A DNA stretch of 38,974 nucleotides from Herbiconiux sp. (GTDB lineage Bacteria > Actinomycetota > Actinomycetes > Actinomycetales > Microbacteriaceae), in assembly GCF_023264895.1 (NCBI RefSeq), contig NZ_JAHFUY010000041.1:1-38974 (forward strand), in the 5' to 3' direction. A model generated the notes under the pieces. It did no database searches. It saw nothing but the letters and a program-made list of their open reading frames with translations, and was not told the DNA's origin. Numbering within the stretch: position 1 is the first letter of the stretch; each line of letters opens with the position of its first letter. The translations under genes were made by a program, and so were the position numbers. This document shows positions 5,323 to 31,703 of this stretch, in pieces.

Positions 5323-5411
5323 GCGACTTGACAGAAAGTGCGCCTAAGACCGCCGACTTGACACAAGATGTGCCAAGTCGGCGCTCTTACGCACAACTAC
5401 TGTCAAGTCGC
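5323..5411. repeat. 89-bp inverted repeat with two 42-bp arms (35 of 42 positions pair)
   Basis: Arms 5323-5364 and 5370-5411 are reverse complements at 35 of 42 positions without gaps, around the five-base centre 5365-5369. Each arm itself holds CGACTTG twice, 30 bp apart (left arm at 5324 and 5354), so the element has four such half-sites. It fills the gap between tmk (ends 5453) and holB (starts 5213). As RNA on either strand it would form a long stem. It could be a palindromic dispersed element (REP or MITE-like), a multi-site operator, or an mRNA stabiliser; no ORF or target-site duplication was identified. Confidence 0.85.
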
Positions 5412-26265: not shown

Positions 26266-27219
26266 TCAGGGGGCGGGCGGGGTGCGGCGGGCGATGTCGG
26301 CGTGGGTGTAGGCGGCCTGGGGGTTGCGGTGGGTGCGGTCGCGGAGGGCCGCGGTGAGCACGTGGCGCCAGTGGGTGGCGCGGGAGGCGCGGACGACGCG
26401 GGCGCGGAGGGTGTAGGCGTCGAGGTAGGCAAGGCGCGGCGCCCAGATCGGCCGGCGGCGGCGGTTGGCGACGCCCGCGGCGGCCGTGAGGTGGAGGAAG
26501 GCCTGCGTGGTGCCGAGCGCGCTCGCGAGGTCGACGCCGGGCGCGATCGAGGGCAGGGACGGCCGCGTGCCGTCGGGGCCCTCCGTGGTCATGGCCACGA
26601 GCCCCCGCAGATCGCTGTACGGCGGCACATACGGGAGAAAGCGCGAGAAGTCGACCGTCGACGCCGCGATCTCGTCGAGCGAGCCGCCCTCGGGCAGGCC
26701 CATGAAGCGCTCGAAGGTGAACCGGCTCCGCGGATGGAACGCCGTCACCGTGGCCGCGAAGCCCACGTTCACCACGAGCAGGTTCGGGATGCCGAGTGCG
26801 CGCGCGCCCCTCGCGATCGTGGTGCCGATCTCGGGATGGGTCGTCTCCGACTCGTCGAAGACCAGGGTGGCGCCGGCGAGGAACTCGTCCGCGTTCTCGA
26901 CCGTCACGCCGTCGCGGTAGACGTGCACCGTCGCATCCGGATTGATGGCCTTGACCTCCTCGCGGAAGACCTCGGCCTTCGAGCGGCCGTAGGTGCGACT
27001 GCTCGCACCGGGCACACGGTTGGCGTTCTGGGGCTCGAACTCCTCCGGGTCGGCGATCGAGAAGTTGGAGACCCCCATGCGGGCGAGCTTCGAGCCCACC
27101 TGGAAGCCGACACCTCCGACCCCCGCTATGGCCACGCGCGCCGAGAGCAGGGCCTCCTGCTCCGCCTCGCTCCAGAACCCGAAGTTGCGGGAGAACTCGA
27201 GCGCGCCGACGGTCTTCAT
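26266..27219 (-). CDS. ThiF/E1-like adenylyltransferase without cysteines
   Basis: A 317-aa enzyme of the ThiF/MoeB/E1 superfamily, which activates a carboxylate as an acyl-adenylate. The nucleotide loop is GVGGVG (residues 33-38), followed by IADPEEFEPQNANRV with Asp57 and Asn67-Arg68, Lys81, and the FDESE segment with Asp122. It contains no cysteine at all, so it has neither the E1 catalytic Cys nor the CxxC zinc pairs of MoeB/ThiF; the microcin C enzyme MccB also works without a catalytic Cys. The C-terminal 70 residues are basic. ATG 27219 overlaps the stop of the LuxI-like gene (ATGA), so the two are translated together. Substrate is unknown. Confidence 0.88.
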   Translation of the reverse strand: MKTVGALEFSRNFGFWSEAEQEALLSARVAIAGVGGVGFQVGSKLARMGVSNFSIADPEEFEPQNANRVPGASSRTYGRSKAEVFREEVKAINPDATVHVYRDGVTVENADEFLAGATLVFDESETTHPEIGTTIARGARALGIPNLLVVNVGFAATVTAFHPRSRFTFERFMGLPEGGSLDEIAASTVDFSRFLPYVPPYSDLRGLVAMTTEGPDGTRPSLPSIAPGVDLASALGTTQAFLHLTAAAGVANRRRRPIWAPRLAYLDAYTLRARVVRASRATHWRHVLTAALRDRTHRNPQAAYTHADIARRTPPAP

Positions 27220-28058
27220 GCCGAGGCCGGAGCCTCCACCGCTGCGCTCTCGGCGGCCGAGGCCGCTGCTTCCTGCGCCGCAAGGGTGGCCTCCCGCTGC
27301 GCCCGCGAGATGCGCCCGAAGTACTCCAGCGACCCGTCGGCCGCCGCGAGCTGCCCCAGGATGGTGGCGTTGCGCTCGGTGATCCGCTCCTCGGCACCGG
27401 GCAGGTCGAACTCGACCGGCAGGTTGTAGTCGAGGTAGTGCTCGATGTAGCGGGGCTCGCCGATGCGCGAGATCGAGAGCATGCCCGCGAGGTGGCGCTC
27501 GAGCCACGGCTCGATCACCGCGAACGTGCGACCCACCTCGTGCGAGGAGAAGTAGGCCGACATGAGCGCGAACAGGTGCCACTGCACCAGCTCCTGCATG
27601 GCGACCCGCTCGTGCCGGGCGATCACGCGCGAGACCTCGACGCTGCCGAGTGCCAGCGGATGCTCGGCGAACAGCTCGGGGCAGAACTCCTCCACCGGGA
27701 GGGGGCGGTCGACCCCGTCGGCCCCCTTGATGATGGTGCGGGCGACCCCGACGATGCGCACTCCCTCGGGTGCGTTCTCGAGCACCGCGAAGGTGACGGA
27801 TCGCGCGTCGTCGTCGTCACGGTCGGTGCCGTCGTCGGAGAGGTCGGCGGGGTCGAGCTGACCGGTCTGGTCGACGTAGACGCGCCGGCGCAGCTCGAAG
27901 TGCTGGCGGTAGGCGTCTTCGAAGCCGGGGCGCGGGACGCCGTCGACGGCGATGATGCCGGTGGCGAGGCGGGCCTCGGGGTCCGAGACGAAGGCGGGCG
28001 ACCCAGCGACGACCGGGATCACCGCGGCGTTGCTGACCGAACGATCAATCCGCGACAC
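27216..28058 (-). CDS. LuxI/FeeM-like autoinducer-synthase-type acyltransferase
   Basis: A 280-aa GNAT-fold protein that matches the conserved residues of acyl-homoserine-lactone synthases in order: Arg57 in LRRRVYVDQTG, Asp81-84 (the D-x-x-D site), Arg107 in GVARTI, Phe125 in EEFCPELF, and Glu141 and Arg144 in SVEVSRV. These motifs are shared with N-acyl amino acid synthases (FeeM). It should move an acyl chain from a carrier onto an amine, but product is unknown. A C-terminal Ala-rich tail follows residue 255. GTG 28058 has GGGGGAAG eight bases upstream. It is followed by the ThiF-like gene and preceded by a small ORF overlapping its start. Confidence 0.82.
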   Translation of the reverse strand: MSRIDRSVSNAAVIPVVAGSPAFVSDPEARLATGIIAVDGVPRPGFEDAYRQHFELRRRVYVDQTGQLDPADLSDDGTDRDDDDARSVTFAVLENAPEGVRIVGVARTIIKGADGVDRPLPVEEFCPELFAEHPLALGSVEVSRVIARHERVAMQELVQWHLFALMSAYFSSHEVGRTFAVIEPWLERHLAGMLSISRIGEPRYIEHYLDYNLPVEFDLPGAEERITERNATILGQLAAADGSLEYFGRISRAQREATLAAQEAAASAAESAAVEAPASA

Positions 28059-28107
28059 CGGAGAGCTTCCCCCTCGCGGGCCGTGAGGCAGTCGTCATCC
28101 GGAGCAC
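28045..28107 (-). CDS. Small ORF (20 aa) overlapping the LuxI-like gene start
   Basis: GTG at 28107 is preceded by a perfect GGAGG (28119-28115) seven bases upstream and opens a 20-codon frame, V(M)LRMTTASRPARGKLSGVAD, ending 14 bases inside the LuxI-like gene in another frame. The strong ribosome binding site argues it is translated. It may couple translation onto the acyltransferase, or be a precursor peptide or leader. The peptide is basic, without hydrophobic stretch. Confidence 0.5.
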   Translation of the reverse strand: MLRMTTASRPARGKLSGVAD

Positions 28108-28179
28108 TTCGAATCCTCCGTTTTCAGGGGGTGGTGGGCGGTCCGGCGTGGTCGCTGAGGGCACGCTGCCGATGGCATG

Positions 28180-28208
28180 AGCATAGAAGCGCCCGAACCC
28201 GTTTGCAA
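28180..28208 (-). promoter_or_regulatory. Promoter of the LuxI-like/ThiF operon: TTGCAA, 17 bp, TATGCT
   Basis: On the minus strand TTGCAA (28208-28203) and TATGCT (28185-28180) are separated by exactly 17 bp, giving a leader of about 115 nt before the LuxI-like start and about 66 nt before the small ORF. The operator palindrome lies immediately upstream. Confidence 0.7.
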
Positions 28209-28229
28209 CTTGGGACGACATGTCCCAAG
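28209..28229. promoter_or_regulatory. Perfect 8-5-8 palindromic operator between the divergent genes
   Basis: CTTGGGAC (28209-28216) and GTCCCAAG (28222-28229) are exact reverse complements separated by GACAT. It abuts the -35 of the acyltransferase operon and overlaps a possible TetR-gene promoter (TTGGGA at 28210-28215, TATTCG at 28233-28238). A dimeric TetR protein could repress both. Confidence 0.8.
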
Positions 28230-28250
28230 ATGTATTCGAGAGGGGCAACA

Positions 28251-29120
28251 ATGTCGGAGAACAGCTGGACGAAGTCCGGAGCGGGACGCACGCGCGTGCC
28301 GAAAGACGAAGTGCGCACGAAGCTGCTCGACACGGCCCTCGATCTGGTGCAGGCCAACGGCCTCACGGTCGGCTTCGAGCACATGCTGATGGACGACCTC
28401 ATCAAGGAGGCCGGCGTTCCGAGGAGCTCCGTCTACCGCATCTGGGAGTCCAAGGAGGCGTTCTTCGAGGAGCTCCTGAGCGAGGTCGCCAACCAGGTCT
28501 CGCCCGGTCGTGCCGACGAGGAGTCCCTCGTGGCCACGTGGGAGTACCTCGGCTTCCGGGCCGACGAGCTGCGCACCCCCGAGGGCCGTCGCCGCATCCT
28601 GGTCGACGTCACCGGCCTCGCCGCCGAGCAGAACTTCGAGTCGGTCACCTCCTCCGTGCAGTGGCGCACCTACGTGGCGCTCTCCAGCACCGCCCTCTCC
28701 TATCCCGACCCGCGCGTGCGGGAGCGCATCATCGAGGCGCTCCGCAACTCCGAGCTGGCCTTCCTCGACCAGATGGAGGTGTTCTACCGCAACATCGTGC
28801 CCGCGGTCGGCTACCGCCTCCGCCCCGATCTGCACGATGACTGGCGCCCCCTCGTGGTGGCCGCCGCCGCGATCATCGAGGGTCTCGGCATCGCCCGCAC
28901 GACCATCCCCGACCTGGTGGAGGCCCGCTACGAGGTCGACAACGAGGGCCGGCCCGCCGAGGTCTCGCTCGCCGCGATCTCGTACCACGCCATCATCAAC
29001 GCCTTCCTCGTGCCCGACCCGGCCTACGACGCCGAGGCCGCCATCGCGAGGCTCTCGAGCGGCATCGACGAGATCCCCCTCGTGCAGCCCCGCAGCCGCG
29101 CCCTCGGAGCCGACGACTAG
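28251..29120 (+). CDS. TetR family regulator, divergent to the LuxI-like/ThiF operon
   Basis: A 289-aa protein, longer than usual for TetR. The helix-turn-helix at about residues 22-70 reads LLDTALDLVQANGLTVGFEH, then MDDLIKEAGVPRSSVYRIWESKEAFFEEL. The all-helical remainder, about 220 residues, should bind a ligand. ATG 28251 has GAGAGGGG five bases upstream. The divergent arrangement and the perfect palindrome at 28209-28229 point to autoregulation and control of the acyltransferase operon, with the operon product a natural candidate ligand. It ends 18 bp from the convergent membrane protein gene. Confidence 0.88.
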   Translation: MSENSWTKSGAGRTRVPKDEVRTKLLDTALDLVQANGLTVGFEHMLMDDLIKEAGVPRSSVYRIWESKEAFFEELLSEVANQVSPGRADEESLVATWEYLGFRADELRTPEGRRRILVDVTGLAAEQNFESVTSSVQWRTYVALSSTALSYPDPRVRERIIEALRNSELAFLDQMEVFYRNIVPAVGYRLRPDLHDDWRPLVVAAAAIIEGLGIARTTIPDLVEARYEVDNEGRPAEVSLAAISYHAIINAFLVPDPAYDAEAAIARLSSGIDEIPLVQPRSRALGADD

Positions 29121-29138: not shown

Positions 29139-30362
29139 TCAGCCCAGGGAGCTCGCGACCCCGACCGCGGTCTCCGGGGCATCGAAGGCGTACAGCATCC
29201 GGAGCTCACCGGCGCTGTAGGTGACGCTCGAGCGCAGGAACACCGCGTTCATGACGGTGATGAACGTGCCGAAGCGATGGCGGAGCCTGGCCTCCCCCTC
29301 GGCCGATACGACGCGCACGAGCACGCTGTGGTGCCGGCCGGCCCGCGTGACGCGCACGTGGACAGCGCCGCCGGCCCCCGCATCCTGGGCCGCGGAGCCG
29401 TCGCGCTCGGCCGCCGACACCAGCGCCGTCAGGAGCGCCCTGAGCGCCACCTTCTGCTCCTGCGGAAGACCCTCGGAGAGCCGCTCGGGGTCGTGCACGA
29501 CGAGCACCGACGGATGCGTGCGCTGCAGCCGGTCGAGCCAGGGCAGCGCCATGTCGGTGATGAGCACGGAGCGCAGCACCGCCGAGATGCGCCGCGCCTC
29601 GCGCACGTCGGCCTCGGTCACCTCACCGCGCTCCTGCACGCCCTCGAGGAAGGGCACGAGCTCGACCGAGAGCGCGTCTCGGCCGAGATCGCGGATGAGC
29701 TCGCGGAGGCGCACCCGCACCCGGCGCGAGAGCCGGCCCTGCTCGCGGGCGACCGCCTCGATGGAGCGGGACAGCGACAGGCTCATGCGGTAGGAGAACA
29801 CCGACGAGGCGATGCCGAACAGCAGCACGGGCGTGGCGGAGATGATCGCCGAGGTCAGCGGCGACGCGAGCAGCGGCATGGCGCCCGTCTCGAGCGCGCT
29901 CGTGGCGCCCACCACCACGGCGGCGCCCACCGTCGCGACGGCGAGGTCGCGCCCCGGACGGAACTCCGAGCAGCAGAGCAGGATGAGACCCACCGCGAGC
30001 GGGCCCCAGTCGTCCCAGATGACGTTCGTGGCACCCCAGCTGCTGAGGCTCGACGAGACGGAGGCCAGCACGATGGCCGCCACCGCCACCACGAAGCCGC
30101 GGAAGCCGATGGGGCTCCGCACCGGATCGGTGCCGATGAGCACGACGAGGGCGGAGACCGAGACGAACAGGAGCGCGGCGGCGGCGAAGAGCGGATCGTG
30201 GATCAGGTCGCTCGCGCCGACCGTGCGGATGATCGCGTAGACGAGCAGTCCCGCGAGCGCGGCCCCGATGAGCGGGTAGAGGCTGCCGGCGGTGATCGGA
30301 TCGAAGCGCTGGGCCGTGCCGCGCCAGTGCAGGAACCCCCGCATCGCCAGGAGCGCCCTCAT
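29139..30362 (-). CDS. Membrane protein with degenerate kinase-like cytoplasmic half
   Basis: A 407-aa protein with about six to seven membrane helices in the first 200 residues and a cytoplasmic half from about 210. That half begins with a basic coil (REQGRLSRRVRVRLRELIRDLG) placed like a dimerisation helix, and continues with strands such as GGAVHVRVTRAGRHHSVLVRVV that resemble an eroded HATPase domain, but no N-box or DxGxG motif is visible. It overlaps the sensor kinase gene by four bases (ATGA) and mirrors its layout, suggesting a non-catalytic partner. Family not recognised. Confidence 0.75.
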   Translation of the reverse strand: MRALLAMRGFLHWRGTAQRFDPITAGSLYPLIGAALAGLLVYAIIRTVGASDLIHDPLFAAAALLFVSVSALVVLIGTDPVRSPIGFRGFVVAVAAIVLASVSSSLSSWGATNVIWDDWGPLAVGLILLCCSEFRPGRDLAVATVGAAVVVGATSALETGAMPLLASPLTSAIISATPVLLFGIASSVFSYRMSLSLSRSIEAVAREQGRLSRRVRVRLRELIRDLGRDALSVELVPFLEGVQERGEVTEADVREARRISAVLRSVLITDMALPWLDRLQRTHPSVLVVHDPERLSEGLPQEQKVALRALLTALVSAAERDGSAAQDAGAGGAVHVRVTRAGRHHSVLVRVVSAEGEARLRHRFGTFITVMNAVFLRSSVTYSAGELRMLYAFDAPETAVGVASSLG

Positions 30363-31621
30363 CGCGCGCCTCCGGCGGCGGTGGAGGCGGACGGGGACGA
30401 GGACGGCGACGAGGCCGACGCCGAAGCAGCCGGCGACGCGACGGGGAGGGTGAGGATGTACGCGGTGCCGTCTCCCGGCGCCGTGAACAGCTGGGCCTCG
30501 CCTCCGGCGTCGCGGATGCGGCCGAGGATCGACTGGGAGACGCCCAGCCGGTCACCGGGCACGCTCGCCGCGTCGAACCCCACTCCGGGGTCGGCGAGCA
30601 TGACGACCACGGCCTCCGCGGCGCTGTCGACGACGATCTCGGCGCGACTCGCCCCGGAGTGCCGCTGCACGTTGACGAGCCCCTGGCCGAGGGCGAGGGC
30701 GAGGGCGGTCGTCGTGGCGGCGCTCAGGCGCTGCAGCGAGCCGAGGTCGCCCCGCACCTCCACCTCGACGCCCTCGGCGCGGGCGGAGCGCACGGTCTCG
30801 GCGACGGCGGCCGGCAGCTGCCCGTCGGCGCTCGCGGCCCCTCCCGATCCTGCCCGGTCGCCCGGCCACCAGGTGCCCTCGACGATCATGGTGAGATCGC
30901 GCTCGATCGACGCCCGCTGCGAGGGCTCGAGCGGGCCGGGCGGGCGGGCGGCGAGCACGGTCAGCTCGCTCAGCACGGTGTCGTGGAACAGCGCCACGAC
31001 CTGGGACTCGAGCTCGCGCTGGTAGGCGATCGCCTCCGCCTCCCGCCGTGCACGCTCGACGGCACGCCGGTCGCGGAGGGCACGCCGGCGGAGCACGAGG
31101 TTCGACACGGCCACCACGAGGATGACGAGCGAGGCCGCCGCCGTCTGGAAGTCGAACGCCGGGAAACGCCCCACCGTGAGCGCCGCCAGCAGCACCGCCA
31201 CCTGCCCGAACACGTAGGCGAGGGCGATGTGGACGATCGACCGCACCCCCAGCACGTTCGGCGCCACGGTGTAGACGAACGCCATCTGCGGCAGGGCCAG
31301 GATGAACGGGGACTCGACGATCTGCGCGGGGGCGTTCTCGAGGATGACGAGCGAGTACAGCCCGATGCAGGCGGGGCCCACGAGAAGGTGCAGGAGCATG
31401 ATCCACGGGCGGCGCCAGTGGTGGCTCACGACCATGAGGGCGCCGAGCGGCACGAGCAGGAGCAGCGCCGGCCACGCGGTGTGGGCGGGCGAGTTGACGG
31501 TGCGGAGCACCACGAGCACCGCGGCGATCAGGAGGGCCGTGCTGCCGAAGGCGAGCGTCGTGCTCGAAAGAGCCAGGGCGGCACTCGTCCTCGTGTCCGC
31601 CTGCACCGTCGTCCCCGCCAT
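30359..31621 (-). CDS. Membrane sensor histidine kinase (HisKA_3/DesK-like)
   Basis: A 420-aa kinase with about six N-terminal membrane helices (residues 15-185) and a short coiled linker. The likely phospho-acceptor is in VVALFHDTVLSELTVLA, matching the HD-x-V-L pattern of DesK/NarL-type kinases. The ATPase domain has the N-box-like GQGLVNVQRHSGASRAEI and the ATP-lid ADPGVGFD. A Ser/Ala/Pro tail of about 35 residues ends the protein. No response regulator gene is adjacent. ATG 31621 gives a normal start; the longer frame to 31687 has no better support. The partner membrane protein follows, overlapping by four bases. Confidence 0.82.
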   Translation of the reverse strand: MAGTTVQADTRTSAALALSSTTLAFGSTALLIAAVLVVLRTVNSPAHTAWPALLLLVPLGALMVVSHHWRRPWIMLLHLLVGPACIGLYSLVILENAPAQIVESPFILALPQMAFVYTVAPNVLGVRSIVHIALAYVFGQVAVLLAALTVGRFPAFDFQTAAASLVILVVAVSNLVLRRRALRDRRAVERARREAEAIAYQRELESQVVALFHDTVLSELTVLAARPPGPLEPSQRASIERDLTMIVEGTWWPGDRAGSGGAASADGQLPAAVAETVRSARAEGVEVEVRGDLGSLQRLSAATTTALALALGQGLVNVQRHSGASRAEIVVDSAAEAVVVMLADPGVGFDAASVPGDRLGVSQSILGRIRDAGGEAQLFTAPGDGTAYILTLPVASPAASASASSPSSSPSASTAAGGAR

Positions 31622-31703
31622 CGCACCCCCACGATCCTCGTTCGATGATGTCACAGCCCAGGTGACGCGACCGCGTCGTGAGCGCACCCCGGCGCGATCC
31701 GTC

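Follow-up and report, generated by a model that had tools for sequence, protein, structure and literature searches.

An acyltransferase–ThiF gene pair with a divergent TetR regulator in Herbiconiux resembles N-acyl oxazolone biosynthesis

In the Tyz pathway, TyzA N-acylates amino acids, working best with Tyr and Phe, TyzB cyclises with ATP, and TyzC desaturates (PMC10404671). TrzA and the fused protein TrzS carry out the equivalent chemistry on Trp, with cyclisation first (PMC12856293), and producers of N-acyl dehydrotyrosine carry genes of the same kinds (PMC12479983). What N-acyl oxazolones do in the physiology of bacteria is described in PMC12856293 as a major unresolved question. Here we describe related genes in a stretch of 38,974 nucleotides from Herbiconiux sp. 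(NZ_JAHFUY010000041.1; contig C11 of genome G000, the own genome below), which as a whole we call the window. They encode an acyltransferase with the fold of LuxI and FeeM and a ThiF-type adenylating enzyme, and they face a divergent TetR gene. The order of the three genes is conserved in related genomes, and no desaturase gene is adjacent. On the evidence of the acyltransferase fold, the ThiF subfamily, and a natural fusion of FeeM, ThiF, and nitroreductase domains, the nearest known chemistry appears to be N-acyl oxazolone biosynthesis (OxzAB, TyzACB, TrzAS), and not that of MccB or of acyl-homoserine lactone (AHL) synthesis. We give about even credence to the reading that the two enzymes of the operon produce an N-acyl amino acid and then activate it, under the control of the TetR protein.

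The original prediction for this locus proposed a LuxI/FeeM-type synthase, and the residues that it named are real (Arg57, Asp81, Asp84, Arg107, Glu141, and Arg144), so that the core Arg, Asp-x-x-Asp, Arg, and Glu-x-x-Arg residues of LuxI AHL synthases are present in the window protein. In an alignment of 32 distinct acyltransferases, Asp81, Arg107, Glu141, Ser143, and Arg144 are kept in all 32, Asp84 in 31 (with Glu in the other), and Arg57 in 31 (one row is truncated); the loss of the Glu141/Arg144 motif from homologues, which the prediction had named as a sign against itself, did not occur. A more distant acyltransferase from Rhodococcus has Gly at the position of Arg144, and the FeeM domain of a Nitratidesulfovibrio vulgaris protein could be aligned at Glu141 and not at the other charged positions. 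A fold search with the acyltransferase model, which is of middling confidence, returned BjaI first (E = 1.7e-7), FeeM sixth (1.5e-4), and LasI at 8.8e-4; the sequence profile reaches BjaI at E = 0.041 only.

These likenesses do not extend to the families themselves. The window acyltransferase has no match at E ≤ 1 to either PF00765 (Autoind_synth) or PF21926 (FeeM), and a relative from the divergent g159 genomes scores 0.025 against PF00765, under the cut-off. An AHL synthase proper was rejected because the window protein lacks the PF00765 match; the proposal of a LuxI/FeeM-type synthase thus stands for the fold and the core residues, and AHL synthesis is not the closest chemistry. LuxI enzymes carry a Trp that stacks on S-adenosylmethionine (SAM), and Trp is absent from the corresponding stretch in every aligned acyltransferase. 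A SAM-independent route, in which N-acyl homoserine would be made from homoserine and closed to a lactone by the ThiF enzyme, with the TetR protein as the receptor of a genuine AHL system, would fit the finding that the nearest solved structure, BjaI, is an AHL synthase, and the retention of the AHL-synthase core residues. It is opposed by the missing PF00765 match, by the missing Trp, and by the use of aromatic amino acids by the relatives described in PMC10404671 and PMC12856293, and we consider it very improbable.

The ThiF protein falls closest to three NCBIfam groups, PRK08223 (1.1e-44), PRK14851 (3.5e-32), and PRK14852 (2.3e-25), followed by ThiF (5.8e-17) and TcdA (3.6e-12), and profile alignment pairs it with the ThiF half of 30 TrzS-like proteins at a probability of 98.6. 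A PRK14852 protein of N. vulgaris, 989 residues long, joins FeeM (5e-44), ThiF (3e-49), and nitroreductase domains in one chain. The original comparison with MccB-type enzymes did not survive: in a sequence search of the PDB, TcdA was the best match (3.2e-12) and MccB a weaker one (8.1e-5), and in a fold search the first MccB chain came 27th, after AclA at the top (4.8e-9) and then PaaA, TcdA, MoeB, and ThiF. MccB-like peptide adenylation was rejected on these grounds. As for a short precursor peptide, the only short open reading frame (ORF) noticed was a leader ORF that is variable between its ends and was not seen at the g140 locus, no dedicated search having been made.

Arg11, Asp57, Asn65, Arg68, and Lys81, which we take to be the ATP-site residues, are kept in all 31 distinct ThiF proteins. 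The statement that the enzyme has no cysteine is correct for the window protein and holds for only 17 of the 31 members; since Cys occurs in at most 9 of the 31 at any position of the alignment, the general statement suggested by the alignment is that there is no conserved catalytic Cys. Five other actinomycete ThiF relatives (L141–L145) were found at E values of 1e-23 to 1e-27. Profiles of the window acyltransferase (A1), of TrzA, and of the desaturase half of the 30 TrzS-like proteins (FDO, which recognises the N. vulgaris fusion at 5.8e-37) match nothing at these five loci, a weak negative because A1 also misses the Rhodococcus GNAT protein. At one of them (L144, 5813–7497) a GNAT gene (Acetyltransf_1) adjoins the ThiF gene, and the next gene, by eye, is aminotransferase-like; this is a different setting for a ThiF gene. 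The gene for the N. vulgaris fusion lies on pDVUL01 (L139, 5065–8034) near PEP-CTERM/XrtA genes, which suggests that oxazolone-type chemistry may occur near exosortase loci.

A scan of genome contigs with the single acyltransferase protein found 13 loci, in Herbiconiux, in Leucobacter, and in two family-level or loosely named genomes (L014 and L015). The TetR, acyltransferase, and ThiF genes have the same order in 12 of them, and L015 ends at a contig edge before the TetR gene. With a profile, which scored up to 6 candidates per genome and so may have missed some, the acyltransferase was found in 27 of 398 genomes of the family and 6 of 85 genera, including 10 of the 11 sampled Herbiconiux genomes; the protein of H. 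oxytropis is 95% identical to that of the window. (Some loci, such as L017 and L059, are one record present in both collections.) The acyltransferase–ThiF pair is therefore conserved across genera, as the original prediction had expected, with one of the 27 genomes lacking a ThiF match. The full trio occurs in 23 of the 27, and the other four are the g159 genomes. In wider samples, the own genome was the sole match both for the profile in 193 order-level genomes (of 21 that were listed, 13 belong to the same family) and for the single protein in 296 class-level genomes. Over 27 loci, the pairwise distances for the acyltransferase, ThiF, and TetR proteins have correlations of 0.89–0.95, as expected for linked genes.

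One genome, G607, gave no hit in the acyltransferase search, and its locus (L176, 4830–9765) holds a different acyltransferase–ThiF pair at the same place. The 278-residue acyltransferase of this pair matches FeeM (PF21926) at 29.8 bits, where the cut-off is 27, and also Acetyltransf_5; its gene overlaps the ThiF gene, and the ThiF protein is 55.5% identical to a Rhodococcus plasmid ThiF and 35% identical to that of the window. The pair has apparently been exchanged as a unit while the TetR gene and a neighbouring gene with GGDEF and EAL domains stayed, and this exchange beside a retained TetR gene is the strongest single result in favor of a functional unit. On that Rhodococcus plasmid, the small pN9T4-3 of R. 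qingshengii (L138, 3846–6729), an IS256 transposase gene separates a GNAT N-acyltransferase gene from the ThiF gene downstream. Spread of the window acyltransferase itself on plasmids was rejected, as a search of 72,556 plasmid records at E = 1e-5 did not find it; one of these records nonetheless carries a distant acyltransferase–ThiF pair.

The TetR protein follows the pair closely. Its profile gave 24 hits at E ≤ 1.9e-133 in the 398 family genomes, the next best being 3.8e-72. Twenty-three of the 24 orthologs are in trios with the acyltransferase and ThiF genes (23 of 23 when rechecked), and the 24th is that of G607, with its distant pair. The regulator and the pair thus travel together; conservation of the palindrome, which the original prediction had also suggested following, is confined to Herbiconiux and g140. 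The regulator next to the pair is of the TetR type and not of the LuxR type at each of the 24 orthologous loci, and at g159 locus L071 a LuxR-type response regulator gene lies three genes from the ThiF gene.

We compared the DNA-binding part of the TetR protein (residues 20–80) with its ligand part (residues 81–230). For the genera other than Herbiconiux and g140, which supply 15 rows (14 distinct), identity to the window protein is 48–59% in the ligand part and 26–43% in the DNA-binding part, and the TetR of H. moechotypicola (L012) has values of 93% and 57%, respectively. Better conservation of the ligand domain is what one would expect if the ligand stayed the same while the operator changed, and the pattern seen outside Herbiconiux and g140 would favor signalling. 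An unlinked Herbiconiux paralogue (L075) shows the reverse, with 64% identity in the DNA-binding part and 37% in the ligand part. This paralogue (L075, 7707–16081; G000:C126) has neighbors like the HK1 and HK2 genes described below and a GGDEF match about 6 kb off, has no acyltransferase–ThiF pair, and may be a second sensor. Genes related to the trio TetR also occur in close, often divergent pairs in eight g159 genomes (G408, G461, G509, G549, G585, G614, G640, and G665), five of which have no acyltransferase hit.

The coordinates of the features are given in Table 1. The divergent orientation of the TetR gene was correctly predicted, as was the four-base ATGA overlap of the acyltransferase and ThiF genes (27216–27219); Pfam scores were 9.8e-28 for the ThiF protein (ThiF) and 4.8e-9 for the TetR protein (TetR_N).

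Table 1. Features of the acyltransferase–ThiF–TetR locus and its flank in the window
Feature	Coordinates	Strand	Evidence
ThiF/E1-like adenylating enzyme (317 aa, Cys-free, Glu125); predicted to activate a carboxyl group and cyclise	26266..27219	-	gene call, Pfam, NCBIfam, fold, alignment
LuxI/FeeM-fold N-acyltransferase (280 aa, start codon GTG); predicted to make N-acyl amino acids	27216..28058	-	gene call, Pfam, NCBIfam, fold, alignment
Predicted leader ORF, 20 codons (VLR...GVAD), GGAGG ribosome site; stop just within acyltransferase start	28045..28107	-	comparison of Herbiconiux-type loci
Predicted promoter of acyltransferase–ThiF pair, TTGCAA-17-TATGCT	28180..28208	-	kept in 13/13 Herbiconiux-type + g140 loci
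Candidate TetR operator CTTGGGACGACATGTCCCAAG	28209..28229	.	inverted repeat, position fixed across related genomes
TetR-family regulator, 289 aa, divergent from pair; predicted product sensor	28251..29120	+	gene call, Pfam, conservation
HK2, protein of unknown family, convergent with TetR gene; tie to module uncertain	29139..30362	-	no Pfam match at E ≤ 1
HK1, sensor-kinase-like protein; tie to module uncertain	30359..31687	-	HATPase_c 0.00041, under cut-off

The candidate operator has the form CTTGGGAC-GACAT-GTCCCAAG (8-5-8). The palindrome first described as perfect does have exact 8-base arms, with a 5-base centre between them. An equally good repeat arose in 11 of 300 base shuffles of the 192-base gap, so that on its own the repeat is only modestly unusual. 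It abuts the -35 box of the pair promoter and overlaps a possible -35 box of the TetR gene, read by eye (TTGGGA at 28210–28215, with TATTCG at 28233–28238). A match to TTGRGAC-N5-GTCYCAA lies directly upstream of TTGCAA-17/18-TATGCT in all 13 loci compared (12 Herbiconiux-type and g140), the promoter spacer being 17 or 18 throughout. Only 4 of these 13 rows have a best repeat with exact 8-base arms, and for the remaining 9 the repeat was equalled in 124–298 of 300 shuffles; the case for an operator therefore rests on its fixed position in related genomes. Other genera have a different sequence at that place.

Among the matches listed in a search of the own genome, 28209–28229 is the only site without a mismatch, and one further site has a single mismatch (C40:25573). 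The rest of the listed matches are a different, abundant repeat, and on this listing a wider TetR regulon was rejected. With two mismatches allowed, the pattern occurs at 83 sites in the genome, compared with 1 for a reversed control, and nearly all of the two-mismatch sites listed belong to this other repeat, some of them closely spaced. The repeat, CTTGACACAAGATGTGCCAAG at 5357–5377 of the window, is the core of a long imperfect intergenic hairpin (read by eye) that recurs through G000; it has no match in Rfam and is a candidate for a dispersed REP/MITE-like element or a regulator site.

The leader ORF was found in all 12 Herbiconiux-type loci and not at the g140 locus. Its offset to the acyltransferase start is 46, 49, or 64 bases, always 1 mod 3, and its length varies only by multiples of three. 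It may couple translation to that of the acyltransferase.

Outside Herbiconiux and g140, the locus has a recurring neighbor. Close to the TetR gene and convergent with it is a GGDEF gene, present in all 15 rows (14 distinct) of g128 (with Leucobacter), g161, and g191, at a distance of 10–47 bases in g128 and g161 and of 639–656 bases (one gene away) in g191, where the gene between encodes a response regulator at the one locus scanned. Both GGDEF and EAL domains were found by Pfam in all eight neighbor genes scanned, and likewise in that of G607. The 12 genomes in which we counted have 3–8 GGDEF matches each, and so adjacency to the TetR gene is unlikely to be due to chance, although shared descent must be allowed for. 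A GGDEF-type gene also adjoins trzS in 26 of 30 TrzS-like loci, and the trz genes of Mycobacterium tuberculosis have the c-di-GMP genes rv1354c and rv1357c next door (PMC12856293). This recurrence favors signalling.

The Herbiconiux-type loci have other neighbors. HK2 and HK1 homologs hold their place by the TetR gene in 8 of the other 11 such loci and are not at that place in L010, L012, L076, or g140. Weak relatives of both lie several kilobases away in g191 (24–34% identity), short HK1 matches occur in g159, and kinase-like and response-regulator genes lie downstream of the ThiF gene at g159 locus L071. Thymidine kinase and radical SAM genes are also common to the Herbiconiux, g140, and g191 neighborhoods. 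No conserved transporter was recognised in the shared neighbor clusters, from which three proteins were scanned (two radical SAM proteins and one thymidine kinase).

In the mechanism that we propose, the LuxI/FeeM-fold enzyme would join an acyl group, likely from acyl-CoA (as TyzA, TrzA, and BjaI do), to the amine of an amino acid, as its fold and active-site residues suggest. The ThiF enzyme, judging from its subfamily and from the fusion protein, would adenylate the carboxylate of the N-acyl amino acid, after which the amide oxygen may close the ring to give a 2-alkyl oxazol-5(4H)-one (azlactone), or another nucleophile may trap the adenylate. As no flavin desaturase is encoded alongside, the expected product is a ring that is saturated and more reactive, which for TrzS is only an intermediate. 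The TetR protein would bind the 21-bp repeat, which covers both divergent promoters, and be released by the product or a derivative of it, which would make a local, self-regulating, and possibly cell-to-cell circuit, and in the related genera with a GGDEF-EAL neighbor the output may feed c-di-GMP signalling. The pair would thus work like the first two steps of the Tyz/Trz/Oxz pathway; we do not file it as one because the desaturase is missing.

Several observations weigh against this proposal. Saturated azlactones hydrolyse easily, which is awkward for a long-range signal. The two structure models have pLDDT values of only 66 (the acyltransferase) and 65. The acyltransferase scores under the Pfam cut-off with Acetyltransf_5 (0.0016) and far under the curated cut-off in its NCBIfam match, and it gives no alignment with the TrzA profile (hhalign probability 0.3); the scores of the ThiF protein with PRK08223, PRK14851, and PRK14852 are likewise all under the curated cut-offs, the best one far under. 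Three of the four g159 genomes have the acyltransferase–ThiF pair without an adjacent TetR gene, and in the fourth there are relatives of the acyltransferase and, weakly (30% identity), of the TetR protein, with no ThiF match. In the Herbiconiux and g140 TetR proteins other than that of L012 the two parts are about equally conserved (80–100% and 83–100%), and TetR_N is under the cut-off or absent in the four diverged TetR proteins scanned (L016, L064, L066, and L176), so that these may bind DNA differently or not at all. To these are added the absence of a GGDEF-EAL gene from the Herbiconiux loci, a substitution in the ThiF active site, and the lack of a desaturase, each taken up below.

The absence of a GGDEF-EAL gene from the Herbiconiux loci would suit a lipid pathway serving metabolism or stress, under ordinary TetR feedback and without signalling, in which the c-di-GMP and kinase neighbors are inherited synteny. 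The single zero-mismatch operator site among the matches listed, with no sign of a wider regulon, points the same way, as do the shared thymidine kinase and radical SAM genes, which look like ordinary synteny. Against this explanation, GGDEF-type genes recur by a different oxazolone cluster, that of trzS, and by the exchanged pair of G607; we regard it as possible and rather doubtful.

The substitution is at Glu125, which is present in all 31 distinct ThiF members where the E1 fold usually has Asp. The position was matched to the adenylation-site Asp by alignment with MoeB- and TrzS-type proteins, and the column has Asp in six outgroup rows (the own MoeB-like protein, Rhodococcus, Bdellovibrio, N. 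vulgaris, and two TrzS). TrzS D217A is reported to form no product beyond acyl-tryptophan (PMC12856293), and D217 probably corresponds to this column. The invariant Glu hints at altered chemistry, and the adenylate might instead be passed to a second amine, an alcohol, or a carrier to give an acyl dipeptide, amide, or ester, with the TetR protein serving in feedback only. PaaA and MccB, which share the fold together with the top match AclA, perform other carboxyl-activation reactions. The ThiF subfamily and the FeeM–ThiF–nitroreductase fusion indicate the oxazolone route, and we think an uncyclised product unlikely.

As for the desaturase, the FDO profile had no match at 33 loci, comprising 31 trio or pair loci (30 distinct), L074 (only an acyltransferase relative), and L075 (the TetR paralogue); the flanks covered were up to about 10 kb long and shrank to almost nothing where a contig ended. 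Nor did it match in the window, in L034 or L037, or near the G607 or Rhodococcus plasmid pairs. A complete oxazolone pathway with its desaturase encoded elsewhere in the genome, making an ordinary unsaturated N-acyl oxazolone, could draw on three nitroreductase-like genes in the own genome, a 92% complete draft; one of the three is weakly similar to FDO (1.7e-6 overall, best stretch 39 residues). The desaturase part of PRK14851 was not found in the own genome at E ≤ 0.1, and with the FDO result this makes such a pathway improbable. According to PMC12856293, a majority of ThiF nodes neighbor a desaturase, an acyltransferase, or both, and desaturase-free pairs may therefore sit unremarked in that network.

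Returning to the proposal of an oxazolone-type pair that makes and activates an N-acyl amino acid, we suggest, as a tentative extension that we do not expect to hold in full, that it represents a new class of actinobacterial autoinducer. A LuxI/FeeM-fold synthase and a desaturase-free, Asp-to-Glu ThiF cyclase would together make the signal, a saturated N-acyl azlactone or something closely derived from it. Its dedicated receptor would be the TetR protein, with a conserved ligand domain and a drifting operator, and the circuit would be connected to c-di-GMP turnover. An oxazolone-type pair that comes with a candidate receptor, with one clear candidate operator in Herbiconiux, and with a recurring c-di-GMP neighbor in related genera makes the signalling hypothesis directly testable, and if true, it would define a desaturase-free branch of the oxazolone pathway. 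We found no description of the trio in Microbacteriaceae, or of a TetR protein tied to an oxazolone pair, in the literature searched, including passages of PMC5539150 and PMC12856293, and a search on AclA and on LuxI in Herbiconiux or Leucobacter found nothing on the trio system.

The window genes can be set beside several known systems. FeeM N-acyl amino acid synthases (PF21926) share the fold of the acyltransferase, which has no PF21926 match, unlike the G607 enzyme, which passes the cut-off. The PRK14852 fusion, from the third-best NCBIfam group of the ThiF protein, has both activities in one chain and, unlike the window, includes the desaturase. TcdA, the tRNA t6A cyclase, is an example of ring closure by the ThiF fold on an N-acylated amino acid; it is the best PDB sequence hit of the window ThiF, but it acts on tRNA, and its NCBIfam group scores lower. 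The gamma-butyrolactone receptors ArpA and ScbR are actinobacterial TetR proteins that sense a small molecule from a neighboring synthase, as is proposed here, with a different synthase and ligand. Among the oxazolone systems, OxzAB (named in PMC10404671 and PMC12856293) has an acyltransferase and a ThiF domain, as here, but its ThiF is fused with the desaturase. In TrzAS (PMC12856293), the acyltransferase is upstream of the ThiF domain and c-di-GMP genes adjoin, but the ThiF is again fused to the desaturase, and TrzA is not detectably related by profile to the window acyltransferase. TyzACB (PMC10404671) combines a LuxI/FeeM-fold amino acid N-acyltransferase with a separate ThiF cyclase of 318 residues; it has the desaturase TyzC, and no TetR protein is mentioned in the sections consulted, whereas the window has a TetR gene, a leader ORF, and Glu in place of Asp.

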